A stretch of DNA of 64,000 nucleotides from assembly GCA_029706075.1 (NCBI GenBank), contig JAINUG010000087.1:3466929-3530928 (forward strand), written 5' to 3'. The translations under genes and the position numbers were made by a program. Positions 1 to 47,879 of this stretch are shown here, one piece after another. The number at the start of each line of letters is the position of its first letter. Within the stretch, counting starts at the first letter, position 1. The notes beneath the pieces are model-generated. The model had not been told where the DNA came from and did not search any database. It worked only from the letters and a program-made list of their open reading frames with translations. The stretch comes from Aldrovandia affinis. Its lineage: Eukaryota > Chordata > Actinopteri > Notacanthiformes > Halosauridae.

Positions 1-2426
1 AAATGTCAATGTAAATGTAAACCCCAAAAATGGGTGGAGCTACCATATGCTGTCACCTACGGACCAATCAAAAGACTACTCTCCACCATACAACACACCA
101 TAAATCATTCTTATCAGTGAGCCACTGATAACCCTGCTCTTCTTGTGGTTTACGATGTGTGCTCATTGCTACTCATGCCTGTTCATTCACCCCGCACCAC
201 AAATTGGGGATGCAAAAATTCAGCACAGGGCCCTCCCTAGCCAACCAAATCCTTTAAAGCTTTCATGGCATTTCCCATATAATAAACTGACTTACTGAAT
301 GATTGTATGGGAGATAAAGAAAAGTATATGGAGTGTCGCCAGTTGCAAGCCAGTCAAATTGAACAGGTGGAATAAGCAGTCACGTTAAGGAAGGTCATAC
401 AGTCACAGTCACAGGTAACAAGATGCAGAGAATCAGTCCAGGTGGCCTGGACAGAGCAGAACTATACCTCAGACACAAAAAGGGTACGGGGGTCGATCAC
501 ATCCAGGAAGTGTCTCAACCTGCCGGAGAAACAGCCCTAAAAGAGAGGATAGCCTGTTAGCTCTTTACGCTACGAACGTGTTTACAGAGATGCATGAGTG
601 GAAAGAAAGCAAAGATGTCATCATACCATGAAAGCACTGGCCTAATTTCCACTGTTCCGACTCAACAAAGAGTACATCTGTACACTGTACAAGAATACAG
701 TTTAGTTTAAACATTTGGCATACTGGCAGTAACGTTTTGCAAGGTATAAACAAAGATGTACAGGTAACTGCCAAAATAAAGAAAACGTCATCATAAAGTG
801 TCTTAATAGGGCGTTGGGCCACCATGAACCACCAGAACAGCTTCAGTGCACCTTAGCATAGATTCTATAAGTGTCTGGACCTATATTGGAGGGATGCAAC
901 ACCATTCTTCCACAATAAATTCCATTATTTTGTGTTTAGTTGATGGTGGTGTAAAATGCTGTCTCAGGAGATCTGGTGACTGAGATGGCCATGGCATACA
1001 TTGTTTTGTCTGGTAAGTCGCTCTGGATAAGACATCTAATTCTAACATTTAAGATGTTTAAAATGTAAAATGTTTTCAGGCTTATGAGACCATTCTGCTC
1101 GTGTCCTGCGGATGGGGGCATTGTCATCCTGGAAGAGACCACTCCCATCAGGATAGAAATACTTCACCAAAGGATGAAGATGATCATTCAGAATGGCTTT
1201 GTATTTATTGGTGTTTACCTTGCCCTCTAAGGGGTTGAATGGACCTAAACCATGCCAGGGAAATGCACCCCACACCATAACAGAGCCAAACACCATAATT
1301 TACTCAAGTGTTTCCTTTATTTTGGCAGTCACCTGTATATAAGGTGCAGGCAGCAGTACTGTATCCCTTTTACAGAGTGAGTATTTATGTAAATTTCATG
1401 AGAAGTATGCTAATCACAAACTGGTATTGCATGATAATGACAAAACTGGTAAAACCCAAATAAACAGGGGAGGCAAGTAAGCAAATGACAATCTAGTGTC
1501 AGTGAAATGACGTCAGTCCAGCAGTGTGATGGAAGATGTATACATTAGCATAGCCTCAAGGGTTTGTCACTGTGAAATCACTCCAGCGAGGCTCTTCATC
1601 AGCACTTCAGTTGTGAATATTCTATTCTATGGCCACTCAGGAATGGGTCAGGCTAGGCTGCAAGGAGAGAAACGCTTTCCCTTCCGGCCAACTGTAACCA
1701 CGATCTCACTAAAACAGACGGCTCGAGTACCATCTCCCCGTACAAATGAACGACTCTCCCTCAACTATAAGGCCACAGGCTGAAACTAGGTATTTTTCAA
1801 CTTACACAGATATCTTTTTATCATTTATTTATAACATTTGTACACACATAAAAATTGTAAAAATGGTCAACAAAGAGCAAACTTGCAATAATGTGATGCA
1901 ATTTCTCATCTATTCAACTAAAGAATGATTCAATTAAGATTCATGCTGCTGGTCTGATCTCCTGCATATTTTTTTTTCTTAACTATGTTTGGACAATAGG
2001 ATTTAATACTGTATTTTGTCATGAAAGCCTCGCATGAAATGACTTGCTAAATGGTTTCATAGCAAGCACAAATATTTCTCAATATAAAGCCTATATTTGT
2101 ACTTGACCCAGAGCGTTCTTCCTTCAAAGTTGCATTGCTATGGCAGCCATCTCAATGAAGAATAATTACACTGTAGCGCACGCACTGGTTAAAAAAATCT
2201 ACAAGACTGACTAAAAGTAAAAGTGTCATACAACGGATAAGGTTAATTTGAGTGAATTAAAACAAAACAATAAAAACAACACTATTCAAAGGAACTTTTA
2301 CTTATGCGCACCGATCAGCGGACCGAAAGAGCTTTCTCTAACAAATAATGAGATTCTCAAAACAAGCAAATCATGCGCTTGGTAAAATAAATAAATAAAT
2401 AAAACCCGTCTGAAAATGTGTTTTAC
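1..2426 (-). other. SFXN5 intron 1 (partial)
   Basis: This is non-coding sequence downstream of the SFXN5 exon 1 donor. Apart from the Tc1-like relic at 761-1335 it holds AT-rich unique-looking DNA. No open frame here resembles a sideroflexin exon on the minus strand or any gene on the plus strand. Confidence 0.6.
761..1335 (-). mobile_element. Tc1/mariner-like relic, 575 bp, with target-site TA and nested SINE tail
   Basis: The ends are inverted repeats: CAGGTAACTGCCAAAATAAA at 761 and its complement, with one or two changes, ending at 1335. Each end is flanked by TA, the Tc1/mariner target duplication. The minus frame at 1042-1296 reads like a Tc1 transposase core, including VMVWGAF and FQDDNAP around the second catalytic Asp. 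Most of the transposase is missing. A stretch at about 1010-1076 (GTCGCTCTGGATAAG...) is the tail of a SINE inserted inside. It is a dead, non-autonomous copy. Confidence 0.85.
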
Positions 2427-8428: not shown

Positions 8429-8686
8429 TCACTTGAACCTGGAGCGCACTTGCAGCAGCGTGGGCGTCTGCTCCATGATGCGCACCAGCAGCCGGTCGAT
8501 GTAGTCCTCCATGTCCCGCACTTGTAACTTCATCTTCTTCAGCTCCACCTCCCGTTTCTCCAGCAACACGCCCTGCTTCTCAAACTCCTCCCCCTGCTTT
8601 TCGAGCTCCGCCTCCCGCTGCAGCAGCAGAGCGACGATTTCGTTGTTGGTCAAGTGGCCATACCGGGCGGTGCTCTCTGAAAGAGA
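8429..8686 (-). CDS. rab11fip5: RAB11FIP5 exon 6 (Rab11-binding domain, stop)
   Basis: The acceptor GAACAG|TCTC at phase 0 leads into 85 codons and a TGA at 8431-8429. [15 protein letters not shown] and [19 protein letters not shown] form the C-terminal Rab-binding domain, a parallel coiled coil that binds two Rab11-GTP molecules. Between them runs a charged helix with residues spaced every seven (L, F, L, L at exon codons 28, 35, 42, 49). This segment looks 21 residues longer than in human FIP5 as I recall it. The protein ends VRSRFK. Confidence 0.93.
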   Translation of the reverse strand, partial: SLSESTARYGHLTNNEIVALLLQREAELEKQGEEFEKQGVLLEKREVELKKMKLQVRDMEDYIDRLLVRIMEQTPTLLQVRSRFK

Positions 8687-11600
8687 CTGTTCAGGTGGGA
8701 TGGGGACAGAGACGTGTATTTAGAGACGTTCACCGTCACAAACAGGGGTTACTCATCTTGAGGCAACATTGCATTTTGCTGGATAATTATTGGGTGATCA
8801 CCTCTGCAAGCAAGATATTTATTCATTCTGTTGTTCTGTTAATAAGCTAATCATGCATTCAAGTTAAACATTCCGAACTCAGCTCATATATGTTTCACAT
8901 AGCTCATGGATGTCGTCTTGCACTTTGGAGACATACAGGTTCTCTAGAATTGCGATATTGCTCAAGGGTCAAGCTACTGGCCTACTTGGCTGAGGGGAAA
9001 CATACTGTACATAGACAAGAAAGTGTTCAATGTGGAATGGTTTGCCAGTTTTATCGCTGGCCCATTGTCACGGTGAAACAGATCCATAGAAGTAGGTCAC
9101 TGGCTTTTAATTAGCAAGCTGAGGAAGAGAATGCCCAGGGGTCCCGTCAGTCAGTGAGCCACACAGCCTAATGAAAAAACACTCTCCTTTCTGAGTCCTA
9201 CTCACCCACTACACAGACTTTACACATATCAAGAAGCCTCCTTTGTTTATCCAGTAATTCATCCACCAGCTAAAAGCGGACAACATTAAATGATCTCAAA
9301 CAAGTAATTAATCATATAACAAAAAGCGGTTGACCTTAATTCATGTCAGATCAGTGATTAATAGAGTAACTAAGACTATGCTGTTCACAGACACTAAATA
9401 CATTTGTATAAATACACACATTCTTAGCGCATAATTAATCATTTTATTAATGCTATGTGTTTAAATTAGGAAATGTGGCAATACTTTGAAAATACTCCAT
9501 ATTTTGGATTTCATATTTTGCAATACACTGACATACAGGTACCTGCCAAAATAAAGGAAACACCAACATAAAGTGTCTCAATAGGGCGTTGGGCTACCAC
9601 AAGCCACCAGAGCAGCTTCAATGCACCTTGGCATAGGTTCTACAAGTGTCTGGAACTCTACTGGAGGGACGCAACACAATTCTACCATGAGAAATTACAT
9701 AATTTGGTGTTTTGTTGATGGTGGTGGAAAATTCTGTCTCAAGCACCGCTCCAGAATATCCCATGCGTGCAATTGAGACCACTCAACTCTACAACAGCTT
9801 CAAGGCCTACCTTATTCCTCTCAGCCTCAGGCTCGCCTTGCTGGGACGCCCGCCCAGGGTGAATGGTGGACTTGAGCTTCTCCAGTCCGCTGGCGAGGAC
9901 TGAGCGGCCCTCCGGCTTCTTTTCTCCCTGGGGGGCTGGAGCGTTCAGTGGCTTCACTGGGTGGGGGCTGAAGGGGAAAAGTTACTGAGGATAAGAGTGG
10001 GAATCGGACACATTGCCATGGAAACAGATCCCAGCCAAGCTTAGCTCAAAGAAACTATTGAGCTAAGCTTCATAGTCTTTCTTAAGTAGAACATGGGAGA
10101 GCAGTTCCAGGCCACATGACAGATTTGATAAATACAGAAACTTTCGGTCTGCAACTCCCGTGGTATGGAATATCATGTCACATTATGGCATGCAAGAATC
10201 AGATTTGGAGTGGAGATAAAAAAAGACACCCTCCATCCCTTTCAGACCGGCACTGCTCACCCATGACTTTAGAGGTACCCAGAAATCACAAATGCATTGT
10301 TTTTCTCCTGACCGATGCTAATGAATCAGAGAGAGAGAGGGTGAGACAGAGTGAGAGAGAAAGAAAGAAAAACTAAAAAGAGGGAGAGAGAAATAAAGAG
10401 TAGAGTGAGAGAGGAAAAGACTAATAAAGAGTGAGTTTGACAAAGACATAATGTGGGCAAAAGAGAGAGGAGGGGAGAGAGAGAGAGAGAGAGAGAGCAG
10501 AGAGAGCAAAAGAGGTGAGCCTGGTGATTAGAAAAGCAGGTTGTTGAGCCAGTGAAGGTTGGAAAGAAAGATGCTGAGGAAGGAGGCGGACCCGATGCTT
10601 GATTGACAGCTCTGCACAATGGATGTCTCTTGTTCCATGCGCCAAGTGCACAGGGATCAATATAGCACTTTGTGAAAACACAATAACACAGCCCTAAGGT
10701 GAAATAAGCACAGCAAATAAGCACAGAAATTGACAATTGAAAACCTTCCACGATTCAACATTCACTGGAAGTTCACTTGACATTGATGGGTGAGACATTC
10801 ACCAAACACAGGGAGTCAAACTATTCCTTTTTGCGCAGCAGAAACAGGCAGAAATCAGAAGTATAAACATTTATTGCACAGAATATGGAACCATTGCAGA
10901 CTAAACCAGCTGTAAGCACACAATAGTAAACCCAGTGGCTGCTGCATCTATGCTTATAACTTTTAAAAGTACATTTCCAGATGGTGTTCCCCAAGCTCAT
11001 AGAGGGTGACCTGCATACTCACTGTGTCGGAAGAGTACACTTAATATGGCAGCTGGTGCAGGCAGACTGCAGGCGCCCGACCGCCCACAGGAGGCACTGT
11101 TGTGCAAGGAGATGAGGACATTCTTGCTGACTGAGCCCCTCCCTCTCTGGATTAACCACTTAACCGTGAACACATTATGGCTTGAAAGACTAACTAGAAT
11201 CAGTTATGTGTGTGCTTCAATCATCCCCTGTTCAACGTGTCATTCCACCGCAGGTATAAAATGAGTCTCTAAAACCTTCAGGACTGTGGATATCCAGGAC
11301 GAGGACCTTCTGACCCCGACCCCCCTAGTGGTACTGGTCAAAGAATTATGATCCGTCACAAATCTGTCAAAAAGCAATTTCCAACTAATGTGCATTCACA
11401 GCCTTCACTCAAATAATGAACAACTACACTGTTTTTCGATCCAATCAGCTCCTTCCTGCAGCTCAGGGCAATAAAAAACATTAACTCCCCCAATTTCTAC
11501 AGTCATCACATATATTATATCTTCCCGTCCAAAAATCAGATACTCTTTCAGCTTTCAGGACAGTGCTCAAATGCTCAAATTGCTCAGTGTCCAATAAAGA

Positions 11601-14600
11601 ATTCAATGTACTTACGTTTTTAACAATTTCCGGTATGTCCAAAACATCAAGCTTCATATGGTTGTTGTGTTTAGAAATATGATTATTAAACCCTAAAACC
11701 CTATTATATAAACCCTAAAACAAGGCCCTTTTTAACATGTTTGCATATTGCACAGTGTTCTCTTGAGACAAATAAATTGTCTCAGACAACATATTATTGG
11801 CCCACGTGTCTGTATGCTTGTCTTTCCTCTGTAAAAAAAACAACAACAAAAAACTAGGACAATGCCAAGCCCAAGACTTTGATCCCTCCCACTCTTAAAT
11901 CATTGACACTTGAATGGCCTGGTGTTGAAGGACACATCAGTGGGTGGGGATTGGCTGGAACAAAGACACTGGAAACACAGTGCTAAGGGAAGCCAGTGGT
12001 GCACAAATTCGGTCATGGACCCCTGCCACACCAGCTGAACTCAGTGGCATAAATAAAGGACAGGAAGTGCCTTTGGGGAAATATAAGAATTCTGCACTCA
12101 CTCAATTTAGAACATTACTCAAAAGCACATCCCATTAAAAGCATAAAAACACAGGAACAAAACATGTAATATTGACCTAAAAATGGTAAAAAGTGTAAAA
12201 TGGTAAAAATGTTTTTTTGCATGAAAAAATTTGCATGAAAGAAATGAAAAAATACTTTTTGTTCAATAAAAATGAAATTCTGTGAAGGCAATACTGTGTT
12301 AAAACTGTGCCCTCTGTCACCAGTGTAGACGTATCTGTTACTGGTGCCAAAACTCACCAGTGCTCACCTGCAGAGTCAGGCCTCCACATGCAGAAGTGTT
12401 CACAAGAACAATCCTTGGAATGTCAGTGTAATTAAATATAAAAATATTATAATTAAATGAGATGGCTGAAATTAAACCATAAATTTGACCTACCTGCAAA
12501 TCATAGATTAAAATGTTTAGTCTTTTAGCAAATGAAAATGTTACAAACTAATTAGCCTTTTACATCTAGTGTGTGCTGTATTTGTTTTTGCATGTGAGTC
12601 AGATATTTAATCTGGCCCAAAATTAACCTTCACAAAACAATATAATATTAATGACCAACAATACAATTTGACTCAATGATTTCACTGACATATATGCATT
12701 TTGACATATGCAATAGTCCAGGTTATTTTTTCCTATCAAGAAGCAACAATTGTCAATAACCTGTGCAACACTCCAGCTATGTGCAACCATGAATGTGCAG
12801 ATGATGATGCAATGTACGCTGTGCTTGTCGCCATGCACCACAACTGCAATAGCTGAAATAGATGGATTGGGATAAATCAAAAAGGGAGTGGGGAGGGGGT
12901 GGGTGGCTCGCCCCTTAGGGGGGCGTTTGCACGTGCTCTCACCTGCTCTTGTGACTGGACAGGGAGCTGGTAGCCGGGCGTGTCTCCTTGGGCAGAACCG
13001 TGTGCGCTGAGCCAATCACAGGTGGAGCAGCAGAGGAGGAGGGGGCGGCGGCCTGGGTGGTCCCTGCTGGTGGCCTCACGCTGGGGGGGGTTGGGGTGGG
13101 CAGGGGGAAGGGGGTGGACGGGGCGTTAGAGTTAGCCACTGGGGAGGGGGCGGAAGAAGCCCGAGGGGCAGAGCCATGCAGAGGGAGCCCAGGTGACGTC
13201 CGATCGATGCCAGATCGATTTCTCAAGCTCGGGGCCACTTTGGCATGGAGGTCCTCGAAGCTGATCTTCTGAGTGCCTTCCGATAAAGGATATTCCACAC
13301 CAGGCTCTGCACATCCGTCCTCCCTGCAAAACGAGGCCTCCTGGCTTGCTTCAGGCCCCTCGTTCACCTGATGGTGACCCGACGACATGGGCTCGTTGAA
13401 AAGCCTGGGCGGTTTGGGGGGCGGCTCACTCACTTCCTCATTGTCGCATTCGCCCTCCCGCGGTAGCTCAATGAGCAAAGGATCAATCGGGCAGCATGCA
13501 TCGTTCAACAAAGAGCCATCCTTTGCCTCAGAATCTAAAAGAACAATGACGTCACTGGTGGAATTTGTCAGAGGCTGGTGAATGCATTCCGTCTCCGTGG
13601 TTTCCCCGATGATCCCATCTTCAGCAGGAGTAGAGCAGTGAAGTTCACCTGTTTCATTAATAGTTCCAGGCTCATTTTTCTCTGGACAACCAGCAGCTAA
13701 AGGTCTGCTAAAGGGTTCAAAATGATTTGATTTTCCATGTTCCTCTTCTTTGAGATTTCCTTGAAATGTGTTATTGAGATTCAAGTCACTGCACGGTGCA
13801 GTGAACACAATGGTAGGCAGTTCAAGGGTGCTATCTGAGCCCACTTCTGTAGTCCAGGCCTTGCAGGGTGACTCTGAATCAGTCTTTTGCTCTGTGGGTG
13901 ACCATTCTGTCTGGGAGCATTGTTTGAAATCCTTCCCTGTGTGAGCGTTTCCCAAGTGAGCATTTTCCATGTGTGCTCCAGTCAGAGATGAGAGAGGAAG
14001 GCTTGAAATACCTCCTTCGGCAGCAGTCTCAGGAGGACCCCAAACCTCAGAAGAAAGAGTTTCCACTGGTTGTGTAGAAACAGCTAAATCTGACTCCAGG
14101 ATCAGAAGTTCAGCTGCATTTATGGTAACTCCAAACTTAGATCCCACAAACGGAGCGGAAGCAAAGGGCGTGCAGCCACCTTCGTCGCCACAATCCACTG
14201 ACACCACAGCAGCGGTGTTTGAGAAGACGTCCGTGATCAAGCTGTGGGATTTCTTCGTGTGCACTTCGGTAGGGAGGAGTCTGGGAGACTGGGACAGGTT
14301 AAAATCTTTGTCTGTGTTGTTGTTTATCTCGAAGACATCAATCATTGCAGGTGGAGAACAAGCAGAGTCAGTATTGGCAAGCTGTGAATCACCAAAATTA
14401 TTATTGTGAACTTGTTTGTTAACTTCCAAATCAATGACTTTGGTCCCATTAGTGCTTGGATGGACAGTGGCAACATTAGGAACAGGCTCAAGTGCAATAG
14501 CAGTAGTGACATCTGACTTCTCCTGGTTAGCTGTACAGAATCCGTGTGCTTGAATAGTGGCAGTGGAATGAGGCTCAGCTCCTTGAGTCTCTCCGGGAGA

Positions 14601-17600
14601 GATCTTTGAGTTATTAGTGTCCATTTCCCACAGAAGTGAAGGAACCTTGTCTTCCACTTCTTCTCCAAAAATACTGCTAGTGGTATCTTCTCCATCGAAT
14701 TCTTCAGAGCCCTCTAAGGAAAAGAACTCAAGTGTGCTGTTCAGGATTGATTCATTGTCAAGTTCTGGTGCCACAGAAGCTGGTCCCTGCTCAAGCCCGT
14801 GGCTCCACACCAAGCTCTTGGCGTCGCCTCCCGAAAACCTCAGACCCCCGTGGCGTTGCAAAGAAGCCGACTTGCCAGGGCACCTTTTCGCGGGACACTC
14901 CTGCACGCGCCTTGAGGACGGGTCGGAGTCGGAGGGCTTCGCGAGCGGCTTTGCCACTTGGGCTATCTGCACCTCTCGGTCCGAGAGGGATGAGCAAGAG
15001 GCGTTTCTCCTGCGTCCCCCCTCCCTGCGGTGGAGCATGGACGCTGCGTCCGTCTGGGACAACAGACATGCCTCCTTCTTCACCGCCAGCTCCTGCGCTC
15101 TGTCCAGCCAGCTGTCCCGGCGCACCTCTTTCACCGGCGTCCGCACAGGCCTTCGCGGCGGCAGGGGCGGGGCTTTCGCGGCCAGGGCCAACGGCTCATT
15201 TGCCTCGTTGATTTCCTCTGCGATGCCACCCACGGGCCACTCCTTGTGGCCAGCGTTTGTTTTGTGGCTGGGGCCTCGCGGTGACTTCAGCCTGCTGGTG
15301 GCGAAGGCCTCGAACGAGTCGTCCCACTCGCAGCCGCTCTCCGACAGGGAGCGCGTGGTGAACGGGTTGGCAGAGGAGTTCGACATTCCGGAGAGCAGCG
15401 CGGGGAGGGACCTCTGCCGGGACACGCACATGGGGCGCTCCCTCTGAGCGATTACTCTTTCCTGAGGTATGGCATTGAGGCTGGGGCTGGGGGTACCAGA
15501 CCAGGAGGGGGAAGCTGCGGAGGGCCAGAGGGGGGAGCTGGAGGGGCGAGGGGTAGTAGGTATGGTAGATCTTAGCGCCTGGTCGGCTAGGAGCTCCTCA
15601 TAGAAGGGGTTGCACTGCAGGCGGGTGAAGAAGGGGTTGGAGGGAGATATGGGTGGGGTAGCAGGGGAGGGGGTGAAGGGATTAGCGCTATGCACACTGC
15701 CTGGTGAAGCGGAAGCAGGAGAACAGCAAGGGGGCAGGTGATTGGAAGAGCGAGGTGTGGTGTGGAGTGCATCTGTGCTGGTTTCTACCATAGGAGACAC
15801 TTCCTGGCTGTGGAGGGAAGGCACACATGGTCCTCATGGTTAGTTGTGCGTCAAAGGGAATATTGCAGGATTTTCATTTATCAAGGTCAACAACAAAACT
15901 GCTGGGCTGATAAGCAGCCAATTCCCACAGCTGAAACAGCATTGCCAAAATACGAGCTCTCCAAAACCATCTTAAATTCTAAAAAAAAAAAAAAAATGGA
16001 GGTAATAGTATTTGCTACAGTTCGCTACAAACATAGCCCAGGGAATAAAGGGAAAGAATCCCCCCCCTCAGAAGACCAATTTACCAGTTTACATCCAGGT
16101 AGCCTGGTACACCCTCCACGATTTTAGACCTGATCCAGTTCTTTTAAACTGTCATTCCAATTTTTCCACAACTCCTGGTGAAACTTGGCGTGTGCACGCT
16201 AACACCATACCTCAACCTTAACTCCTGCAGTGTGTCAGGTCCTTCAAGTCACAATTTCCAACAACAAGTGGCTTTTGGATATCAAAAAGTTTTTAAAAAA
16301 TCCCCTCAGTCTTTGCAGAGTATCAGGAGTATCATCTTTCAGGAGCCAGGGTGGCTAATCAACATCATAACTGCACCAAGCAAAATATATCTATTTTCTG
16401 CAAAAATATATCTATTTTCTGACAATAATATGACTGTTTATTTTAAAGTTCAAACAGCTGTTTTAATATGTGTTCTAGCATACACTGGATAGACTTTGAG
16501 TGGAAGATGAGGATTTTATTGAGCCGTGACAATAATATGACTGTTTATTTTAAAGTTCCAAACAGCTGTATGTTTCTGCTTCATGATGAGGGTTGTTTTT
16601 CTTTTCAGATATTTGTACAGCCTACTTTTGAAAAAAATCACAGGTCCCTCCATTTTGAAAGATCACAATTGTGCACCAGGCTTCATTAATACAACATTTG
16701 AAAACAAGCCAAAAAAAAGCACTGTAAATAGTGGCACGCACAGAGCAAAAACTGTGAAAAATTTCCGATCTAGTTTTTAAGCTCCCAATTTAGTGGCTAA
16801 TTATGGTATATTTACACCCTGTTCTGTTCTTGTGAGCAGCTTTAATTTAGCCACTCCCCCCTTGCATGTTTGCACAAAATGTTGTGGCTTGTTGTAGTCC
16901 AAATCCATCATACATCTCTTTATGAGATATGCATTCATACAATAAAAGTATGTAATTCTTTGAAATTTTTATGAATTCAGTTATTTTACTTAATTTAAAA
17001 TATAGCTTTGCTTTTCCCCCACATTATAATGAGTAAAAAACAGCCTCAAATACCTGTTAAAATGAAGTTTCCATTTCACTCACACAATTTATGAATGTCA
17101 TATAAATCTTAATGGGGGTGGGGGGGTGTGAAATGGAAGCAAACGTCATTGGTATGATCTGTTCCCAATTAAAATAAAAGAATGTGCAATGTAATGCAGC
17201 TGATACCTACAACAGGAATTTATTTCCACCCGATTACATACTGTTCTAAGAGTGGAAGCTGACACCAAATTAATGAGGTTTCTAAAATAGAAAAAGTCAA
17301 TTCAAGGAGACGAAGAATCATTTTGCCAGCATCAAGTTCCACTCATTTCGTATGCCGACGCCACAATAGGAAGAAATAACCTCTAGCCGTGTCTCTTGCT
17401 CTTACTGGAAGAATTTTAGATTCACCTTTCACTATCACTGAAGGCTTTGCCTACGACAGACAAATCCATGTTGTGGTGACATGGCCCCCAAACGACAACA
17501 AGAAATAATTCCAAATTACTTCCACTTTCCCTAAAAAACTACAAACATGCACAGGATACTTTAATCATTGACCGAGTCTTCATCGTTCTAGATAAGTGAC

Positions 17601-20600
17601 CAAATTAATAAGGAACTTTTTTACATTTTTATTATTAAATTGGTATATTCTGTGATTCTGTTATATGTTTGTTTTGTATGTCTGCAACTTATTGTTTTCT
17701 TGCTGCCTGTCTTGGCCAGGACACACTTGAAAAATAGATTTTTAATCTCAATGTGGCTTTTCTGGTTAAATAAAGGTTATATTAAAAAATATATATATAA
17801 ACCATAAGCAAACTTATTTAACATAACCTAATCTCTCAGTCACAACTAAACTGTTTTAATCTAAAGTACATAAAGATAATTCTGTAGCATTAGACACAAT
17901 TAAGTGAAAAGGAATCAGCTGCTGATGCGTGATAGTTAGCCACTAACACATGGCTGTTGGTCATGAAATAATTTAAATATTTTGTCATTTAGACTATATA
18001 CGGTACCCGCCAAAACTATTCACACCCTTTATAAAGATGAGCTAAGAAGATTGTATAAAATAAACAATACTGTATATTGTATGGTAAAAAAAACTGGGAA
18101 ATGTATTCTTTTATATTAATACAATTGCTAAAAAAAAATGACATTTTGTCTAACAAGTAAGTTTTTGTCAAATCACAAATTTTCGATTGGGTTCAAGTCT
18201 GGAGACTGGTCAGTTAACCATTTCTTAGTTGATTTTGAGGTACAGGACCATTGTCATACTGAAAGATCCAATTGCAGCCAAGTTTCAGCTTCCTGGCAAA
18301 GGGAACCAGGCTTAAAACTATGATTGGGGTTTGATTATATATAATTATAGGAATGTGAAATGCATATTTTGGGCAAAAAAATATAACTTAAACAAAGTAA
18401 AACTGTAAAAATACAGTAAGACTTGGAGGATACTGTATTTTTACATTTTGTAAGTCGTTTAATTCAGTATATTTAGCATTTCATATTTTGACATGATATC
18501 ATGGTGTATCAACAACACATTCATCTCAAAAGAAGGCTTGCAGAGCACAGACCAATCAAATGGAGGATGAGGAATTGGAGATGGTGTTAAATAAAGTTGG
18601 AGCAGCTAATCAGGGCTAATAACACATGGGAAGGCCCTACCTGTGATGCTGATACTTTTATAGAACTGACCCAAGTACAATGTACAACCAGGCAATAATC
18701 CTGGTTTCTAGATAAGGCTTCATATAAGAACATAAGAGTACATAATGATGAGAATGGGCCATTCAGCCCATCTAGGCTTGTCATGTCCTAATCTAAAGAG
18801 TATCTGGTACTGCATCTAGCCTGGACTTGAATAACTCAAGTGTTTCTGCCTCTACTACCTGCTCCAGACATTGACAACTCTGTGTGAAAAACTACTTCCT
18901 AATATCCGTGCAGAATTTGCCTTTCATTTCCACCCGTGGCGTCTTGTTCTGCTAACCAAATTTATCTTAAAAAATCGTTGGTAGATTTTTGTATATGCAG
19001 TTGTACAGTATGTTTCAGACTACAGTACGTTTAGTAGTCTTTTTCCCACATCATTGCTTCTCTGACAATGTACACTCAAGAATGAAAGTAAGCCATTTAT
19101 CATTTACCAACCCATTCAGGAACCTGTTGGATTGTCCCTCCAGTTCAAACAATTTCTGCAGTTTGATCATCCACGTTAAAACAGATTATGGCCGGCCTCC
19201 CGCGTGGCCCAGTGGTTACAACGCTCTGGCCGGGAGCGCCACCAGGCTGTGCTTAAGAGTGGCCCTGTAGTACCGGGTCACGGTCGACACTTGGCGAGTG
19301 CCGTCTCGGAAGATGCGTCAGGTCGCCTTCGTCACTACCGGTCGCAGGACTACGGCAGCGAAATCACATTACTAGGGGGGGATTGACATCTAATTGGCAA
19401 ATTGGGCCACATCAGGCCATTGATTTTGACATTTTTGTGTATGAGAGTGAGTGTGACCAGATCTCAACTCAATTGATCACATACGGGAGATTGTAGAACG
19501 ACGCCTGTGTAGCATTGTATCACGCGCCCCGTCGACTCATTAATTTGTTCTACAAGGCAAACTAAGTGTAACTGCTCAGTTCTCAAAGCTATGAGATCAC
19601 TGACAATTACATCCCATTATGTCTTGAGAGAGTACCACAGTCTGTCATACTCACCTTGGCTTGTTGTGGGAGTCCTTGGCACTAAACCATCCCTTGTGTC
19701 TCTCCTCTGGAAGGGGCCGGCCCTGTCCCTGCTCCACCTTGGGGGCGTCTGACTTCCCTGCCGACTCGCTCCTCCCTTGGGAGAACAGGTTCCTCTTCTG
19801 CTTCTTGCCCTCGCCGGGCGGATCTGCCCCCGCTATCGCCGTGACGGCGGGCGCGGGGGCCTGCGCGGCCTGGCTCGAGGGGGCGGCCGCCGCCTGGGCC
19901 GTCTTGTCCTCCTTCCCGCCGCGGTCGAACGACCAGCGGCGGCCCGAGCCGGGGCTCCTGCGGGGGTCGTCGGCGCGCCGGCCGAGGTTCTGCAGAGAGC
20001 GCGAGAGCGGGGCGCACTTCTGCAGCAGGCCCAGAGACGCGGGCAGGGTGCTGGCGCTGCCCGGCCCCAGGGACTCGGCCCCGTACACGTGGCTCCCGTT
20101 GATGCAGAGCGAGGAGCGAGACAGCGCCCCGCTCTGCGCCAGGAGCGTCTCCACGGCGCGCGGCCTGGGCAGGGCCACGGTGATCTTGCTGGCCTCGTCG
20201 CTGAACGCACGCTTGTGGGTCATCTGCTTCGGGGGAGCTTGGACGGGGTGCACTGTGGGGGGGGGGGGCAGAGAGAGAGGGAGACATGGAGAGAGAGGAG
20301 AGAAGGAGACAAGAGAGAGAGGGAGATTGGGGAGGAGAGGCAGAGATGGGGGTAGGAGAAATTGAGAGAGAGGTATAGACCAACAGATGCACACAGAGAG
20401 AGATGGGGAGGGTGAGGGAAAGAAAGAAACATTTAGTTGGACAAACCAAATTGTTTACAAAGATGAGAGGGAGACATGGAGAGAGAGAGAGGGGTGAAAG
20501 AGAGGAGAGAAGGAGACAAGAGAGAGAGGGAGATAGGGGAGGAGAGGCAGAGATGGGGGTAGGAGAAATTGAGAGAGAGGTATAGACCAACAGATGCACA

Positions 20601-23600
20601 CAGAGAGAGATGGGGAGGGTGAGGGAAAGAAAGAAACATTTAGTTGGACAAACCAAATTGTTTACAAAGATGAGAGAGGGAGACATGGAGAGAGAGAGAG
20701 GGGTGAAAGAGAGGAGAGAAGGAGACAAGAGAGAGAGGGAGATAGGGGAGGAGAGGCAGAGATGGGGGTAGGAGAAATTGAGAGAGAGGTATAGACCAAC
20801 AGATGCACACAGAGAGAGATGGGGAGGGTGAGGGAAAGAAAGAAACGTTTAGTTGGACAAACCAAATTGTTTACAAAGATACACTGAGGTATACATGTCA
20901 AAGGCAAAGTGAGTGATGAGTACAGCCCTAGGTGCCCATTCAATTTCAACAGGTGAGTCTCACACACAAGCTCCGCCCCACGCCTCTCACCAGGGCTGCT
21001 GTCGGCGGGGTGGTTGCTGTTTTCGCTGGGCGAGTTGGAGAGGTCCGACACCAGCATGCTGATGCCAGCGGTGGGGCTGAGGCTCCCGCCAGGAGACGAG
21101 GTCACACTGCACTCCGAGGCCAGCGACGTGCTGGACTGCGCATCCGACGCCCTGCGCAACTTGCCCTTGAGGAAGAAGCTCTTCACCTTGCCCCGCCGGC
21201 CCTCGTCGTCCTCCCCGTAGTCGTCGCCAGAGAACCGCCTCCCCCCGCCCGACAGGACGGCGTAGCCCCCTGGGACGATGGCGGAGGATGTCTCAGACTC
21301 GCCCCGCTTCTTGCCCGTCACGCGGTCCTTGAGCTTGCCGAAGGCGGAGCGCGGCTTGTCTTTGACCGAGAGGTCAAACATGCTGGCCGTCAGGTTGTTC
21401 CGAGTGAACTGGACCGTTACCTGCAGCTCCCCTCGCTCCTTCTCCTTCCTGCCTGACTTTGAGCGCAGCTTGTACCACCTGGAACCACAGAGAGGGTGAG
21501 CGTGGGAGGGTGAACAGAGGGGCAGCATTTCATTCCGATTCCAACATTCCACACTGTATAACACAAAGAAAGTACATTTGAAATATGCAGCACTTAACCC
21601 AGAGGTGGGTTGAGTACTTAAAATCGTAGGTAGTAAAGATACTTTCCTAACCACGAAGGTCAACCTACACTCCTGTTCAGCTGTTTTGGGGGAGTTGGTA
21701 GGTGTACTGACATCACCGAATTTCTAGCAATTAAGTGTTCTGATTTTCATTCACAGGATGGAATGTTATAGAATGAGTATTTATAGAATCTAGATGTTTT
21801 GCTGTCTGTGATAAATGTTTACAATGAAGGATGCCTTGCAGTGTGGCGCTAGCTAAGTTAGTTGGCTAGCTAGCATCAGCAATAGCTTCACATGCAAGCT
21901 AGCTACAGCTACATTTTGTAGCCTACCAATGGAAATATGAAGCAGCAGCACTAACATTGGGCAGACCTCCGCAAACAGTATTCAACTGTACGACCACTTG
22001 TCAGGGTCAGAAGGCAGCTCTGAGGATGGAGGTGAAAGCTAGGTAGAGATTATCTGACAGGGATAAAAATGAATGAAAGAAGAAGAAGACGTTATAACCT
22101 AGTTTTTAATTGGTCTCCTGAAGATATTTGTTTTTTACAGTTTTTTATAAGAACCATATTCAGTATTCAGTTCAAGATTTGTACCAATCCTATCATACTT
22201 TGTATTCATAACAATGCAGTGCAATTTTGTTACCTTTTTTATTGTTATCTTTTTACTTTTATTAATGTAAAGACATATTTCTATAGAGTTGTAATGGAGT
22301 TGGTTCTGCCTGCAGCGAGTTTTGAACCAAGGATCTCAATGTGACAAGAGAGCGATTTAAATATAATAAATAAATAAAATATATGCTATTTAGCAGACGC
22401 TTTTATCCATTTTTCAGTATATGTGGTCCCAGTGGGAATTTAACCCACAACCTAAGTGTTGTCAATGCCATGCTCTACCTACTGAGCCACAGAAAAGACT
22501 CAAGTCTCTAACTCCGGGAACTAATCACACTCTTATCCACGTCACTTTCTGTAGTGGACGCTCCACATACCGGAGCATCACCGCTACATTCTCCCCCTCA
22601 AACTCCCAAGTCACGGCACCATTTTAACAGAGTTGGTTCTGCCTGCAGCGAGTTTGAAACCGAGGATCTCGACACGACAAGAGAGACGATTAGCCCGCTG
22701 AGCTAAAGACTCAAGTTTCTAACTCGGGGAACTAATCACACTCTTATCGATGTCACTTTCTGTAGCGGGCGCTCCACCTACCGGAGCACCACTGCTACAC
22801 AGTCCTTAGGTTTATGGTCAGTTATAAGTCAGCAACACCACCGAGTGTGGGTTATACCTACCATGCAAATTCTCACTTGGTGCCCGTTGACCTACTTTAA
22901 TTTTGGCCTGGCATTGGCACATTTGCATGCATGAGGCATGCACTAGATGTAAATAAACATTAGTTTTTATTAAAAAGACTGTCACTGCAAATGCAAAAAA
23001 AGAAATTGCTAGAAAGATTTAAAACTTTTCAAATGTTACTAGGAACTACGTATATACTCCATTCATTACATGTGTCGAAGAGGTCTGGTTTACCCCCCCA
23101 AGGAGCTGAAGCCTAAAGTAGGTTACAAGCGTGTTGGCTATTAGAGTTTTACACAGATTGACACAGCTGGGATTTCTGGGAGTGCTCTACAGAAATGCCT
23201 TGCACTATTTGACCTCTTGATCCTTTCCTCATCCCTCATTTTTGGGTTTGCTTTGTTGATGATAATCTGTAGTGTACCTCAAAGGGTTTCGTGCCAAAAG
23301 ACCTATTACCCTTGTTATTACATTAACAAATATTGCATTGTCTAGTGTGGCTTTCAGTGATAAATACACAACCCTACGTTTTTACGGCCTTGGCAACAAA
23401 CCGACTCCCCGCTGTTTGGCCCAATCAGGAGACGCGGTTTGGTGGAAACTGCTTCTCTGCCAGATTCTGATCCATAGGATGAGGTCGCTATGGATTTACA
23501 AACTGTAGTTTGCCTGCCAAAATAAAGGAGGACCTGGTGGTGCTGTGCGCACTTTGCGTGACCCCGCTCTGAAAGTGCAGCTGTGGAATGGCTTTGCTTC

Positions 23601-37100: not shown

Positions 37101-39037
37101 AAACCACTTCACCCACCAAACATGCACACAAACATATACACACAGACCCACGGACACATTCAAATACAAGATCTTGCATATCAGGACCATTTTCCTGAAA
37201 ATTGTGGACACACCACATAGGAACCATAGTAAATGAAATCCCTGTGGTCCCGGTGAGATGAGTCAAGATGAGGGACAGTGTCTGTGCTAGACATATAATC
37301 CATCACGAGTGAGTGAGCTGTTTTTACCACGTTTGCCCCAAGGATGAAGCAATGACGGAGCCCCACGTGTCCGTTTCCGACAAACAATCCTGTCACCCAC
37401 AATGCACCCTGGCTCCCGCACAGGCGGCTCTGAGCGCCTCCTGCCCTTACAACAAACCCACCCAGGATCGCCTAACCCACCTCGAATCCTAAACCAAACT
37501 CTTTTGTGTAAAAGGGTGGTGAGTGACCCAGGGTCAGTGCCCTGGGGAGCAGAATTGTTCTACATCATACAAGCAGTCAACCTATACAGGTGTGGACCAG
37601 CTGCAAAAACACACATATGATAAAACTTGTTTTTTTCTCACTGCCACCCACAAAGCCCCCTGTTAAATACAAAAAAATCACCCGATTGCAGCACTTGCAA
37701 TTGTCACTTTTACAACCATCTCGGACCCAGCGGTTGAACTGCTTAGTGCACGGCACAACCTACATACTGTTGGCTTCAACATAAAGGACAAACAAAGGTG
37801 TCATGTCTTTCGCAGTACCGATACAGTACCCACGGTGTATGCTGATTTTTACTCACGTCCAATCTCGGCTAATCAGGTCTGCTGAAAAACTACTGTCAGG
37901 TGTAAGGTGTCACTGTTTCCCATGTAAGAAAGTCATTTCTAAGACATTTATTGCCTTTTTCCAAAAAGTGCTAAATCTATTTCAAACTCAATTTCGATTC
38001 AAGGTAGGCTACATATTAAATTACAACTGCGAGTTTAAATACTGACACTCCGGCAAACGTTTAAATATACATTCAAATTAGCATTTTACAAGTTAGCTAG
38101 CTAACGTTAGTTGTAACGGTCATCTTCAACGGCAAATCTACGCGTGCAGGCAGACATATATTTGTAACAGAAAAAACAAAGGAGGAAAGTCATGAACCAT
38201 ATTAGTTCAATGGAATCGAGGCCCTGATCGTTTCCATCCTCGTCTAAAATTATTTGGGGGGAGACATAACGTTGATATGAAGGGAGAGTCTCCCAAACCT
38301 AGTTCGAGATTGCGCCACAAATTGCAAGATTTCTTTTTTCTAAGTAACGTTATAACAATGGCGAGGTTTCGTGAGTCGTTTTCTACTGCCATTGTGAAAA
38401 AGGATACTAAAAAATTATTGACGGTCAATAATACGTAAACGTGTAATTAAAAATATATGTTTTTTAAGTGATCCTCAATCTATGTATTGTCACTATTCGA
38501 ATAACGGCACCAATCATCATGTGCTAGCGAACCAAGCTAGCTTGTTGTACTTAATCAGGCGGCTAGCTATATGGCTAACGCTACACGTGATAAGGGGTCT
38601 GCTATAACAAAAACGACGAAAGCGCAGAACAATGAGCAGAACAAAGGAAAACAAACCCACTCGTTTCTCAGGCATAGCCTGTCTTCGAAGACTTTGTCCA
38701 GGGGCAGGACGACATGTCCGAGAAATGCATCAGGTCCGATCAAGGCTCGGTGCATCACAGTGAGGACCAGGTCGCTGCTCCCGGAGGGATAGGCGCCCTG
38801 CCCCCCTACCTCCAGTACTCCGGGTAGTAGCTCGAAAGAGCATTCCTCTGTCCACTCCGGAGCAGTAGTCTTTTCCACCACACCAGTAGTAAATTTCTCC
38901 TTCCCCACTTGAATAACGGTGTAAACGTCGCTGGTTCCATGCTTGCCCTTCGCACGCAGTCCCCTGCCCCGCAGGACTGTTACCTGGACATGCGTGGGCA
39001 CCCATCTCTGGTCATCATCTAGATTTATGAAAGACAT
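8429..39037 (-). CDS. rab11fip5: RAB11FIP5 (Rab11 family-interacting protein 5, Rip11/Gaf-1), six coding exons
   Basis: Class I Rab11 effector that links Rab11-GTP on recycling endosomes to membrane traffic. Exons in transcript order: 38661-39037, 20991-21478, 19655-20252, 12943-15807, 9811-9967, 8429-8686. All introns are GT-AG and phases (2,1,2,2,0) close exactly: 1580 aa with the large exon, 625 aa without. Order: C2 domain (about residues 12-140), the FIP signature around [18 protein letters not shown], a Ser/Pro-rich middle, then the Rab11-binding domain ending [37 protein letters not shown] and [10 protein letters not shown] match FIP5 as I remember it, better than FIP1 or FIP2. Human FIP5 is about 653 aa, close to the short form. 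The neighbouring SFXN5 supports the call. A teleost duplicate (a or b) cannot be told from one locus. Confidence 0.93.
8687..9810 (-). other. RAB11FIP5 intron 5
   Basis: Intronic, 1124 nt, GTAGGC...CAG. Contains the Tc1-like left-end fragment at 9536-9775 and otherwise no recognisable feature. Confidence 0.75.
9536..9775 (-). mobile_element. Tc1-like relic fragment, one end only
   Basis: Begins after TA at 9534-9535 with CAGGTACCTGCCAAAATAAA, then follows the same sequence as the copies at 761 and 36562 (GGGCGTTGGGCTACCACAAG..., GGCATAGGTTCTACAAGTGT). It is cut off near 9775. The opposite inverted repeat is missing. Confidence 0.85.
9811..9967 (-). CDS. rab11fip5: RAB11FIP5 exon 5
   Basis: 157 nt between acceptor TTCAG|CCCCC and donor AAG|GTAGGC. 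Encodes [20 protein letters not shown], then [17 protein letters not shown], the FIP5 SSGLEKLK signature, and ends ERNK at phase 0. It links the disordered middle to the Rab-binding coiled coil. A Tc1 fragment lies only about 35 nt beyond its donor. Confidence 0.92.
9968..12942 (-). other. RAB11FIP5 intron 4
   Basis: Intronic sequence of 2975 nt between the large exon and exon 5. It includes the GA-rich tract at 10327-10512; the rest is AT-rich with no recognised element. Confidence 0.75.
10327..10512. repeat. (GA)n-rich low-complexity tract
   Basis: About 185 bases of purine-only-leaning GAGA/GAAA repeats on the plus strand, so CT-rich in the RAB11FIP5 transcript. It lies in intron 4 roughly 360 nt upstream of the exon 5 acceptor. 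Confidence 0.85.
12943..15807 (-). CDS. rab11fip5: RAB11FIP5 exon 4, large symmetric (cassette) exon with NPF motifs
   Basis: A single open frame of 955 codons (2865 nt), bounded by acceptor CCACAG|CCAGG and donor AG|GTGAGA. Both borders are phase 2, so it can be skipped without changing frame. The residues are disordered and Ser/Pro/Glu-rich. Four NPF motifs occur (long-isoform residues about 530, 545, 554 and 635), three of them within 30 residues; NPF is the ligand of EHD-protein EH domains. Proline motifs PPLPPRRP and PPPKPPRLF could bind SH3 domains, and WDDSFEAF is adaptin-like. A long FIP5/Gaf-1 splice form exists in mammals as far as I recall, so this is probably its fish counterpart. 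No domain fold was recognised within it. Confidence 0.9.
16381..16575. repeat. Local tandem duplication, about 107-bp period
   Basis: GACAATAATATGACTGTTTA occurs at 16421 and again near 16528, each followed by TTTTAAAGTTC(C)AAACAGCTG. A 23-bp duplication (AAATATATCTATTTTCTG) precedes the first copy. Confidence 0.85.
17640..17800 (+). mobile_element. LINE 3'-end-like fragment
   Basis: The run TCTTGGCCAGGACACACTTG ... TTTTTAATCTCAATGTGGCT ... CTGGTTAAATAAAGGTTATA is a familiar 3' tail of fish non-LTR elements. No coding part remains. Confidence 0.55.
18720..18965 (+). repeat. Interspersed repeat ('GGGCCATTCAGCCCAT' type)
   Basis: Starts ATAAGAACATAAGAGTACAT and continues through GGGCCATTCAGCCCATCTAG, a repeat seen in many ray-finned fish. 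Family assignment uncertain. Confidence 0.5.
19190..19560 (+). mobile_element. SINE-like element with tRNA-type A box
   Basis: Starts with GCGTGGCCCAGTGGTTACAA, similar to a Pol III A box, and is unusually GC-rich against AT-rich flanks. It ends in an AATTGGCAAATTGGGCC tail like the tails at 40672 and 56165. The B box is not convincing, so the SINE call is moderate. Confidence 0.5.
19655..20252 (-). CDS. rab11fip5: RAB11FIP5 exon 3 (FIP5-specific Ser/Pro region)
   Basis: The acceptor CACAG|TG is preceded by a C-run and hundreds of bases of pyrimidine-rich repeat; the donor is AG|GTGAGT. The exon is 598 nt, residues 289-488. [13 protein letters not shown] and [14 protein letters not shown] identify FIP5. 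It is GC-rich and low complexity in the middle ([18 protein letters not shown]) and ends [14 protein letters not shown]. Joined directly to exon 5 it reads [14 protein letters not shown], mirroring the human junction I remember, [10 protein letters not shown]. Confidence 0.92.
20253..20990 (-). other. RAB11FIP5 intron 2
   Basis: Short intron of 738 nt, about 84 percent of which is the tandem repeat listed separately. Donor GTGAGA, acceptor CCCACAG. Confidence 0.85.
20262..20880. repeat. About 208-bp tandem repeat, three copies, GA-rich on plus strand
   Basis: AGATGGGGAGGGTGAGGGAA recurs at 20401, 20608 and 20817, a period of 207-209 bp. Each unit holds a GAGA-rich part and a unique part with TTAGTTGGACAAACCAAATT. 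Copies are nearly identical, so the expansion is recent. In the RAB11FIP5 transcript this is a long CU-rich array directly upstream of exon 3. Confidence 0.95.
20991..21478 (-). CDS. rab11fip5: RAB11FIP5 exon 2 (end of C2, FIP signature)
   Basis: The acceptor CCAG|GTGG and donor CTG|GTGAGA give 488 nt, residues 126-288. It carries [38 protein letters not shown] and a basic [12 protein letters not shown] stretch, all strongly conserved in FIP1/2/5. [20 protein letters not shown] follows, matching the FIP5 KGFFLRNKLRKSS region as I recall. The Ser-rich tail has likely phosphorylation sites, which is inference. Confidence 0.93.
22292..22800. repeat. Two copies of a tRNA-like unit, first interrupted by a SINE
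   Basis: GTTGGTTCTGCCTGCAGCGA occurs near 22293 and 22632. Each copy is followed by GGATCTC..., GACAAGAGAG and later by GAACTAATCACACTCTTATC (22519 and 22731). The minus strand of the second copy reads GCTCAGCGGGCTAAT and GGTTTCAAACTC, Pol III A- and B-box-like. The first copy is split by the SINE at about 22373-22497. Confidence 0.75.
22373..22497 (-). mobile_element. tRNA-derived SINE, family 1
   Basis: The minus strand reads a tRNA-like head (GGCTCAGTAGGTAGAGCA) followed by a B-box-like GGTTAAATTCC and a tail ending in GGATAAAAGCGTCTGCTAAA. Relatives lie at 24898, 33615 and 59583. Confidence 0.8.
24898..25047 (-). mobile_element. tRNA-derived SINE, family 1 (best copy)
   Basis: The minus strand shows an A box at 25038-25021 (GGCTCAGTAGGTAGAGCA), a B-box-like GGGGTCAATTCC, a central ACATATACTGAAAAATATAT and the tail AAGACGCTTTGGATAAAAGC. 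About 150 bp with clear Pol III promoter parts. Confidence 0.85.
26490..26712 (-). mobile_element. tRNA-derived SINE, family 2
   Basis: The minus strand begins GGCAGTGTAGTGTAATGGTC, has a B box GGTTCAATTCCC, a middle ending TATAAATGGATTGTATG and the tail GTCGCTCTGGATAAGAGTGT followed by CTGCTAAATG. About 220 bp; a degraded relative lies at 52255-52440. The tail is shared with family 1. Confidence 0.85.
27233..27357. repeat. Two tandem copies of a 62-bp unit
   Basis: TCACACTGGCCTGTCTGTGC starts at 27241 and 27303. The copies differ by about one base (AACAACGTGG vs AACAACATGG). Confidence 0.95.
27905..28142. repeat. Composite (CA)n / 65-bp minisatellite
   Basis: Four CA runs are separated by spacers. 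Two spacers are near-identical (TAGATT-TCCATTCTCTCTG, then TTTATTGCACGTA, at 28006 and 28071); the first is a diverged form (TCTATCTGTTTAGTGCAC at 27961). Confidence 0.95.
30064..30737. mobile_element. Non-autonomous DNA transposon with terminal inverted repeats (MITE-like)
   Basis: TAAAGGCCAATTTATGCTTT at 30064 is repeated inverted at the right end (AAAGCATAAATTGGCCTTTA, ending 30737). The similarity continues inward for about 40 bp through the GTCGC-rich parts. It has no coding capacity. The terminal sequence and 3-bp-type A/T-rich flanks suggest PIF/Harbinger, but I could not fix the target duplication. Confidence 0.8.
32970..33045. repeat. 30-bp tandem duplication
   Basis: ATCAAAAACAGTGGGTGATC occurs twice about 30 bp apart, each followed by CA-TCATCC-like spacer. 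Confidence 0.9.
33615..33725 (+). mobile_element. tRNA-derived SINE, family 1, short copy
   Basis: A box GGCTCAGTAGGTAGAG at 33625-33640 and B box GGGTTCAATTC at 33667-33677 are followed almost directly by the tail GCTTTGGATAAAAGTGTCTG. The central segment is deleted compared with the 24898 copy. Confidence 0.85.
34205..34535. repeat. Common fish interspersed repeat ('CCATCCATTATCTAACCCGC' type)
   Basis: It contains GGAGGAAACCAGAGCACCCA, GGACACGGGGAGAACTCC and GGCCCCGGCCGGGAATCGAA, phrases shared by a very common ray-finned-fish repeat. It includes the B-box-like CCGGGAATCGAACCC. Class not determined. Confidence 0.6.
36562..37052 (-). mobile_element. Tc1-like relic, 491 bp, internally deleted
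   Basis: Inverted ends CAGGTAACTGCCAAAATAAA (36562) and the complement ending at 37052, followed by TA. The minus frame at 36605-36859 contains [16 protein letters not shown], the region of the last catalytic Glu of Tc1 transposase. The middle of the gene is missing, so it is non-autonomous. Confidence 0.88.
38661..39037 (-). CDS. rab11fip5: RAB11FIP5 exon 1 (start, C2 domain)
   Basis: Starts at ATG 39037 ([20 protein letters not shown]) with a purine at -3; no earlier in-frame start is supported. Encodes 125 codons plus 2 nt, most of a C2 domain: [35 protein letters not shown] and [18 protein letters not shown] are typical class I FIP strands. FIP C2 domains bind acidic phospholipids such as phosphatidic acid and PIP3 and help dock vesicles at the plasma membrane. 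The donor is GA|GTGGGT; joining to exon 2 restores [11 protein letters not shown], as in the family. Confidence 0.92.
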
Positions 39038-45863: not shown

Positions 45864-47879
45864 GAAGCAATATGCAATGGAATAAATTCGCAAATACATC
45901 ACCTAAGGAGACAAAAAATTGTCTGGTTCAACTAAACTGAGGTGGCTCTAAATGAGAAGTGTCATGTCCGTCTCACAAACCCATAAGTTTAGGCATAGGT
46001 GTAGATGTTGTAGGAAAACTGGCTGAACCCCTACCAACTGATGGCACTAGTGTGAACATTAGCAAACCTCTACCTCTCCCGAAACCATTAGTACCCTCCA
46101 TGTTAGAATGAGAAACAAATTAAATGTAAAAAATTAAAAAAGAAAACAAAAATATTTAATAGACTGTGTGTATTATTACGCAATTCCATTGATAAAACCG
46201 ACAGAATGTAAATATTTCCATTGAATGTATAAATAAACAAAATGTATATATTTGTTTCATTCAAATATGATAAGAATGCCTGCCAGAATCACGAAATCAC
46301 GAAATCACTTCAAAAACGAGATAAATTAGGACGCTATTGCCCCCAAGTGGCGAAAAGCGATGCTGCGCTTAATACAGTTCAATACGAATGAACTCATCTG
46401 CAACCACAGTAGGAAACTGGAACGGACGAATCTTCTTCGGAGGTGACGATTCCAGGACGATCACTGCACCACTGTAACAGTACTCTTCTGCGTTGTTAAA
46501 TGAAGAATGGCTTCAACCTGCATCAATCGTCTGTTTATTGTCTGGACATAGAAATGCATGCAATCAGTCATGCAATGCAACGGCGCCACATGCTACTGTA
46601 TGGCGTGCAAAACTCAAAAAGGAATAAGCTTTCGTTAGCTATAAAGCTAGCTTGCAACAGACAACGCACCCAGCTATGATGAGCTGGCTAGCTGGAGATA
46701 CTCTTGCTCATTATTCGACAAAATATTGGAGATTGCAATGTACCCAATCACATTACATTTGGTCAATCAGCATCTATAAAAAGCGTCTGAACATTAGAAT
46801 TCACTACCAACTGAAAGGGATTCCGTAGTTTCTATAATTTCACCTCCAATGTCAAAACCTGGCTCCAAGAAAAACTGATCTGTCAATCTTAACATATTCT
46901 TGTTGATACTCCATACTACTAAACACCCCCAACTGCTTTAACTATTTTAATACAACAATAGTTTAACTTTAATAAATATGCTTGCTCTAATGTGACTCAC
47001 AGCTGCTTTATTTTGCTGAATAAAATGGATGTACTTGTTTGATGTGTGTTATATTTGAGTGGTGTCATTGTCCTGCAGAATTCTGGATGCTGGTAGACAA
47101 TGACATGGCGCTTATGGGATGCACTGGTGGTCTAACTGACCATAGCGGTGTCCAGAGAGAGAGGTTTTCTGTTCTAAGGGTATCCCTGCCACATCACGCA
47201 ACAGCAACTCCTCTGGTCGATCGGTGCCTGCAGTCTGCCTGCACTATCTGCATCAGTTGCACGGTTATCCAGTGCAGTACCTGTGGCAGCTCAGCTGGCG
47301 GATGCATGCATCTATTTCAGATGCATGCAATTTGGAGGACATGCTAAATAATGTGTGCCCGCCTAACTTGACAGAGGTGTTGCAAAGACCCCCACCCCAC
47401 CTTTGTCTCTCTCCCCCAAACAAAAGAGCCCCCCCCTCAATTTTTACCTTTGTCTCTTCTTCCCCAAACCCCAGGTATGGGTTCAAAAATGTAAGTCTCA
47501 TTCCTTACAGACAATTACTTCTGAAATGTCTCCCCCTTCTGTGCAATTTTACCATTACATATTCTTCTGCAATTTAGAAATGTTTTGTTCATTCTTACAA
47601 CTTTCTGATTCATATAAAAATAATAGTAATCTGGTTTACTGAGATTTTCACCTGCAAGCCAGCAGATGGTCTAAAGATCTGATCTGTGTCCCAGAAAAAT
47701 ACATTGAGATGCCCAATCATTCTATGGACTATTATTTTGATATAGTATTGTTTAGCTGATATAGTATTGTGCTAAAATCAAGACTCAGGAAGATTTGCTT
47801 TTCCATAATTGCACTACCAGCTTTATTAGAACAATGCTTAGCAACACAGGGAAGAACAAAGAACACATCAAACTCAAAG

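Follow-up and report, generated by a model that had tools for sequence, protein, structure and literature searches.

Results

A class I Rab11-FIP gene with a 2865-nt exon

We analysed a 64,000-nt stretch of the Aldrovandia affinis genome (assembly GCA_029706075.1, contig JAINUG010000087.1, positions 3,466,929-3,530,928), hereafter the window, in whose coordinates all positions are given unless another contig is named. Its minus strand carries a Rab11-FIP gene, modelled in six coding exons separated by five introns, all of them GT-AG. Exon 1 (38661..39037) starts at the ATG and encodes a C2 domain (PF00168, E 8.5e-17, 61.7 bits against a cut-off of 22); it is followed by exon 2 (20991..21478), exon 3 (19655..20252, ending in phase 2 at AAG/gtgagt), exon 4 (12943..15807), exon 5 (9811..9967, entered in phase 2 and reading PHPVKPL...) and exon 6 (8429..8686), which encodes the RBD-FIP Rab11-binding coil (PF09457, E 5.7e-9, 36.1 bits against a cut-off of 23.3) and the stop. 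The coil also matches FIP1 and FIP2 chains in the PDB. Judged by the order of its C2 and RBD-FIP domains, the gene is a class I Rab11-FIP; we provisionally take it to be FIP5, as opposed to FIP1 or FIP2, from the human exon junction.

Exon 4 dominates the gene. It is 2865 nt (955 x 3) long, lies between a ccctccacag/CCA acceptor and a CAG/gtgagagc donor and has phase 2 at both ends; it supplies 954 whole codons and part of a shared Ser codon. A first-pass annotation made from the sequence had described it as a symmetric cassette exon, and joining the exons reproduced its length, position, strand and phases as well as the two predicted products: exons 1-3, 5 and 6 give 625 amino acids (aa) with the expected exon 3-exon 5 junction peptide, and addition of exon 4 gives 1580 aa, each with a terminal stop only. 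Since the last bases of exon 3 are AG, exon 4 begins with C and ends with AG, and exon 5 begins with C, an AGC (Ser) codon is formed at all three possible junctions. The human protein has 653 aa in its short form, which lacks exon 4, and there is a long human isoform besides.

Exon 4 is a coding exon

The frame of exon 4 was claimed to be unbroken, and it indeed contains no stop, whereas the remaining sense frames are interrupted by 28 and 50; in 300 dinucleotide shuffles of the exon, the longest open run was 310 codons (mean 149). Codon-position periodicity (codon-position information measured against base shuffles) was positive in all six sixths of the exon (z 2.0, 6.8, 9.9, 7.1, 6.4 and 3.6), the weakest value being that of the first sixth, where the NPF motifs described below sit. 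For comparison, z ranged from 5.0 to 21.0 in exons 1, 2, 3 and 6 and was only 1.5 in the short exon 5, while 12 of 14 control intron blocks remained below 1 (the other two at 1.9 and 3.2). A chance open frame in GC-rich DNA, with no exon at all, might be argued from the GC content (0.56) and from an antisense frame of 286 codons that is open too, but 954 open codons against a shuffle maximum of 310, the periodicity and the match to a second gene copy (E 1.8e-50, see below) refute it for practical purposes, and we give it practically no weight. We conclude that exon 4 is genuinely coding. The antisense frame itself (14587-15447, plus strand, inside exon 4) is probably a shadow of codon bias.

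That the encoded region has no recognisable fold also holds: no Pfam family matched at E 1, the lone PDB match had an E of 0.58, and a folded domain was rejected on these two sequence searches. From its composition and the absence of matches, the insert is probably disordered.

An open exon 4 in a second gene copy

A search of the genome (1.22 Gb) with the exon 4 protein gave three matching stretches among 10 candidates, which fall into two loci. One is the window; the other, contig C902, matched with E 1.8e-50 and 9.6e-9. The C902 gene is complete, its C2 exon is 82% identical to that of the window and its exons 2-6 have the same phases. Its exon 4 is even longer, with 1236 whole codons in 3711 nt and without a stop, and agrees with the window copy in place, phases and Ser codon. 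Exon 4 is 38% identical between the copies, with nonsynonymous divergence (dN) of 0.60 and synonymous divergence (dS) of 1.38 over 889 aligned codons; exons 2, 3, 5 and 6 together are 71% identical, with dN 0.19 and dS 0.71 over 499 codons (rough Nei-Gojobori estimates, the dS of exon 4 being near saturation). The earlier suggestion of selection on a long form is thus supported, by a second copy that is open at the same place and phase and by dN below dS. As exon 4 is open in C902, its frame has been kept through an old duplication, which we guess to be a teleost genome duplication, though it has drifted faster than the rest of the gene. About 260 residues of the C902 exon (~840-1090) are almost without counterpart in the window copy.

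All NPF motifs lie in exon 4

Every NPF of the predicted protein is encoded by exon 4 in both copies, four in the window and five in C902, and none was found in exons 1-3, 5 and 6 of either. In the long form of the window gene they stand at residues 530 (15675..15683), 545 (15630..15638), 554 (15603..15611) and 635 (15360..15368), all on the minus strand, and the 625-aa form has none; in C902 they stand at exon residues 47, 62, 71, 144 and 401. When the residues were shuffled 20000 times, four NPF were never reached and three, the best result, only seven times. The first two motifs are kept in C902, and the third reads NPFYEE in the window and NPFFVELLAD in C902. The block holding these three (exon residues 38-80, 43 codons) is 81% identical between the copies, with dN 0.11 and dS 0.64.

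Beside this block, the conserved islands of exon 4 are WD(D/E)SFEAFA (15300..15326, minus strand; WDDSFEAFA in the window, WDESFEAFA in C902) and PPPKPPRLF (13398..13424, minus strand), which resembles an SH3 ligand and is identical in C902. A further SH3-ligand-like motif, PPLPPRR, is present at 15150..15170 (minus strand). The PxxP patterns P..P.[KR] and [RK]..P..P occur in the window gene only within exon 4.

The intron edge upstream of exon 4 is conserved

Nine intron edges were compared between the window and C902. The edge upstream of exon 4 scored 56, while none of its 200 shuffles exceeded 23. Of the other eight, seven did not rise above what shuffling gave, and the edge preceding exon 2 was marginal (29 against a maximum of 27). 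Downstream of exon 4, no conserved intron sequence was found (score 16, shuffle mean 16.1). When introns 2-5 were compared as a whole, the best match was again the upstream edge of exon 4 (E 5.7e-8; next 0.012), which is the sole piece found there to be strongly conserved. The conserved segment is the end of intron 3 that adjoins exon 4 (15808..15855, minus strand; 49 alignment columns, 84% identity) and contains ACTAAC and a short pyrimidine tract. We rejected the possibility that this segment is coding, because the window copy has a TGA in frame 27 nt ahead of exon 4 and the copies differ by a 1-nt gap.

The ACTAAC (15839..15844, minus strand), at -37 from exon 4, is a probable branch point, for which ACTAAC is a good sequence, and also the core of the Qki motif ACUAAC. 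No other ACTAAY occurs in introns 2-5 of the window gene. In C902 the corresponding position (-38) also bears one, and introns 3-5 contain six more.

NPF motifs in the other class I FIP genes

Of 20 candidates scored in a genome search with the C2 exon, 12 matched at E 1 or below, and five of these stand apart (window, C902, C890, C1845 and C1837; E 8.1e-81 to 1.8e-21, next 2.9e-4). Among these five FIP-like C2 exons, the window and C902 form one pair. In the FIP2-like C890, several NPF occur in an open frame ~2.4 kb after exon 2. In the FIP1-like C1845, an open frame of 662 codons, beginning with exon 3, has three NPF towards its end. The likewise FIP1-like C1837 has two NPFEE near the end of exon 3, in a frame that differs from that of the exon's start, which indicates that either the assembly or the gene is broken there; its frames were read separately and left unrepaired. 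NPF upstream of or about exon 3 in these three genes, in two of which (C890 and C1845) the exon-intron edges were mapped in part, suggests that NPF near the exon 3-4 border is usual in class I FIPs. FIP5 looks to be the class I FIP in which NPF lies on the skippable side only.

After exon 3, C1837 has a 703-codon open stretch with the same phase of entry as exon 4 of FIP5, and beyond it lie a nine-residue match to PHPVKP (E 0.30) and the Rab11-binding coil (E 7.9e-9). The stretch contains no NPF, three DPF and two DPW. Sequence kinship of the FIP1 (C1837) and FIP5 giant exons was rejected (BLASTP E 2.9, hhalign probability 0.1%).

Two side observations concern these genes. C890 carries a 39-bp tandem repeat (L024:5395-6022; 15.8 copies, 94% matches), one frame of which reads NPFNPHYKLRYIT; this minisatellite multiplies NPF in or beside the FIP2-like exon, and the frame shifts within the array. 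In C1837, exon 3 and the large exon seem frame-shifted in GC-rich runs (~372527-373369 and 377437-379549), and these frame changes appear to be assembly error or damage.

Other features of the window

The Rab11-binding coil of exon 6 is about 21 residues (three heptads; 8534-8619) longer than that of the FIP1 chain 4d0g: the alignment of 4d0g to it, the first part of which is weak, falls into parts whose offsets differ by 21, and alignment to the FIP1-like C1837 leaves gaps of 6 and 15. Tandem Repeats Finder detected a 21-bp repeat in this region (4.1 copies, 69% matches), and the extra heptads are common to the second FIP5 copy. Most of intron 2 is occupied by a 209-bp tandem repeat (20292-20881; 2.8 copies, 98% matches) which stops ~40 nt short of the acceptor of exon 3. 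Elsewhere in the window, open frames are found at 1042-1299 (minus strand) and 47842-48645 (plus strand); by eye, the former resembles a piece of a Tc1-type transposase and the latter the terminal part of a LINE-type reverse transcriptase.

Discussion

A predicted splice switch for EH-domain docking

Two observations are new here, the confinement of NPF to exon 4 in both gene copies and the conserved intron edge that adjoins this exon. With 2865 nt and 3711 nt both divisible by three and phase 2 at both ends, a cassette exon is plausible from phase and anatomy, and as all NPF lie within the skippable exon, splicing could switch NPF docking on and off. We therefore propose, with a probability of roughly 55%, that exon 4, included or skipped in frame, encodes a region through which splicing gates the docking of EH-domain proteins. 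Skipping would yield the 625-aa protein with its C2 and Rab11-binding ends and no NPF, and inclusion would lengthen it to 1580 aa by an insert that is probably disordered and opens with the NPF cluster. The cluster would serve as a set of EH-domain ligands, either for EHD1-type membrane-scission ATPases or for Eps15/Reps-type proteins, and inclusion would also add PxxP ligands for SH3 domains. Splicing would then decide whether the Rab11 effector itself docks EH-domain proteins, the long form being able to do so and the short form not, and the choice would be expected to be made in the conserved stretch that closes intron 3, where the single ACTAAC lies. NPF is a known ligand of EHD1, and Rab11FIP5 and EHD1 are both members of the FERARI complex, the former called a tether and the latter the pinching part (PMC13427840, PMC9359993); Rab11 proximity labelling picked up both proteins (PMC10323252).

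A series of points weigh against this proposal. Skipping, inclusion and EH binding are all predictions from sequence. NPF is a short motif, and a clear acidic flank exists for the third one only and in the window copy only (strong in NPFYEE, weak in the NPFFVE of C902, the other three not being acidic). Exon 4 diverges much faster than exons 2, 3, 5 and 6, PPLPPRR is not shared by C902, and the final 98 aligned codons are near neutral (dN 0.43, dS 0.53), which means that part of the exon may be loose spacer. The marginal exon 2 edge, slightly above its shuffles, shows that the edge test is not perfectly clean, and conservation upstream of exon 4 may reflect regulation or just recognition of a giant exon. 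Finally, Rabenosyn-5, a member of FERARI, has its own EHD1-binding NPF (PMC13282721), and FERARI need not rely on that of FIP5.

The most serious competitor, which we regard as improbable though by no means negligible, is that exon 4 is constitutive in this fish, which would make the long protein only, the short form being mammalian or limited to some tissues. Both splice sites are near consensus by eye and the exon is kept in both gene copies, as would be expected in this case; on the other side, the phases and the same Ser codon at three junctions permit clean skipping in both copies, and the human short form lacks the exon. Less probable still would be a skippable but weakly constrained spacer that lengthens the tether between C2 and Rab11-binding ends and in which the motifs matter little. 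Such a spacer would account for the low overall identity (38%), the unequal length of the copies (954 and 1236 codons) and the failure to find a domain, yet strongly conserved islands such as the NPF block (81%), the WD motif and PPPKPPRLF are unexpected in it. Very improbable, in our view, is an alternative last exon, with read-through into intron 4 producing a FIP5 without its Rab11-binding coil. AGC AGG TGA spans the exon 4 donor (window 12939-12943, and C902, by eye) in frame, and intron retention would stop translation immediately; any phase-2 AG/GTGA donor yields such a TGA, however, as does that of exon 3, and the intron sequence that follows exon 4 is not conserved.

Extending the splice-gated docking proposal beyond this species is more tentative, and we think it rather unlikely to hold. 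In bony fish, and perhaps in vertebrates at large, FIP5 alone among class I FIPs would have EH docking under splicing control, with the NPF of FIP1 and FIP2 in an always-included region; on inclusion of exon 4, the Rab11 tether of FERARI would directly recruit or hold EHD1-type scission ATPases and so set, per cell type, the fate of a Rab11 vesicle in contact with a sorting endosome, either scission or continued docking. If the exon is switched between tissues, a single splice event would add or remove a link between Rab11 tethering and EHD scission in the same protein, and this would offer a simple route to test whether FERARI needs EHD1 docking via FIP5. Work with the 653-aa form may then have used a protein without the docking region. 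The conserved intron edge provides a 48-nt target for finding a regulator.

Neither the confinement of NPF to exon 4 nor the conserved intron edge was found in print, in a literature search limited largely to papers without subscription. In the available texts that join RAB11FIP5, NPF and EHD1, no statement on an NPF of FIP5 was found, and RAB11FIP5 was absent among the matches listed from the broad splicing literature.

Comparison with known systems

The closest system is the long form of RAB11FIP5 (Rip11, Gaf-1) itself, which resembles the window gene in domain order. A second form is named in print, FIP5 being "also known as Rip11, Gaf-1/Gaf1-b" in PMC3770573, and a long FIP5 form is probably already known; exon 4 as such is in that case ordinary. 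Searches of the literature for "Gaf-1b" and for RAB11FIP5 isoforms with exon 4 returned no paper.

The large exon of RAB11FIP1 is present in FIP1A/B and absent in FIP1C/RCP. Its likeness to the window gene lies in the 703-codon stretch of C1837, which sits between exon 3 and the PHPVKP exon in the same phase, but it is unlike exon 4 of FIP5 in sequence, and C1837 has its NPF in exon 3 instead.

Ninein exon 18, a 2121-nt alternative exon under Qki5 control in which a downstream ACUAAC favours inclusion (PMC6429586), is likewise a giant in-frame exon with ACUAAC nearby, and it alters the location of the protein. There, the Qki5 site is downstream, whereas the ACTAAC of FIP5 is upstream and at the place of a branch point; intron 4 of the window contains no ACTAAY that could act as a downstream site of the ninein type.

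Rab11-FIP2 provides the likeness in docking. The EH domain of EHD1 binds NPF with a preference for acidic flanks, and Rab11-FIP2 is listed as a partner whose NPF binds EHD1 and EHD3 (PMC13282721); as in FIP5, NPF is centrally placed in a class I FIP. In the FIP2-like C890, however, it lies upstream of any large exon, whereas in FIP5 it would be carried only by an exon that can be skipped.

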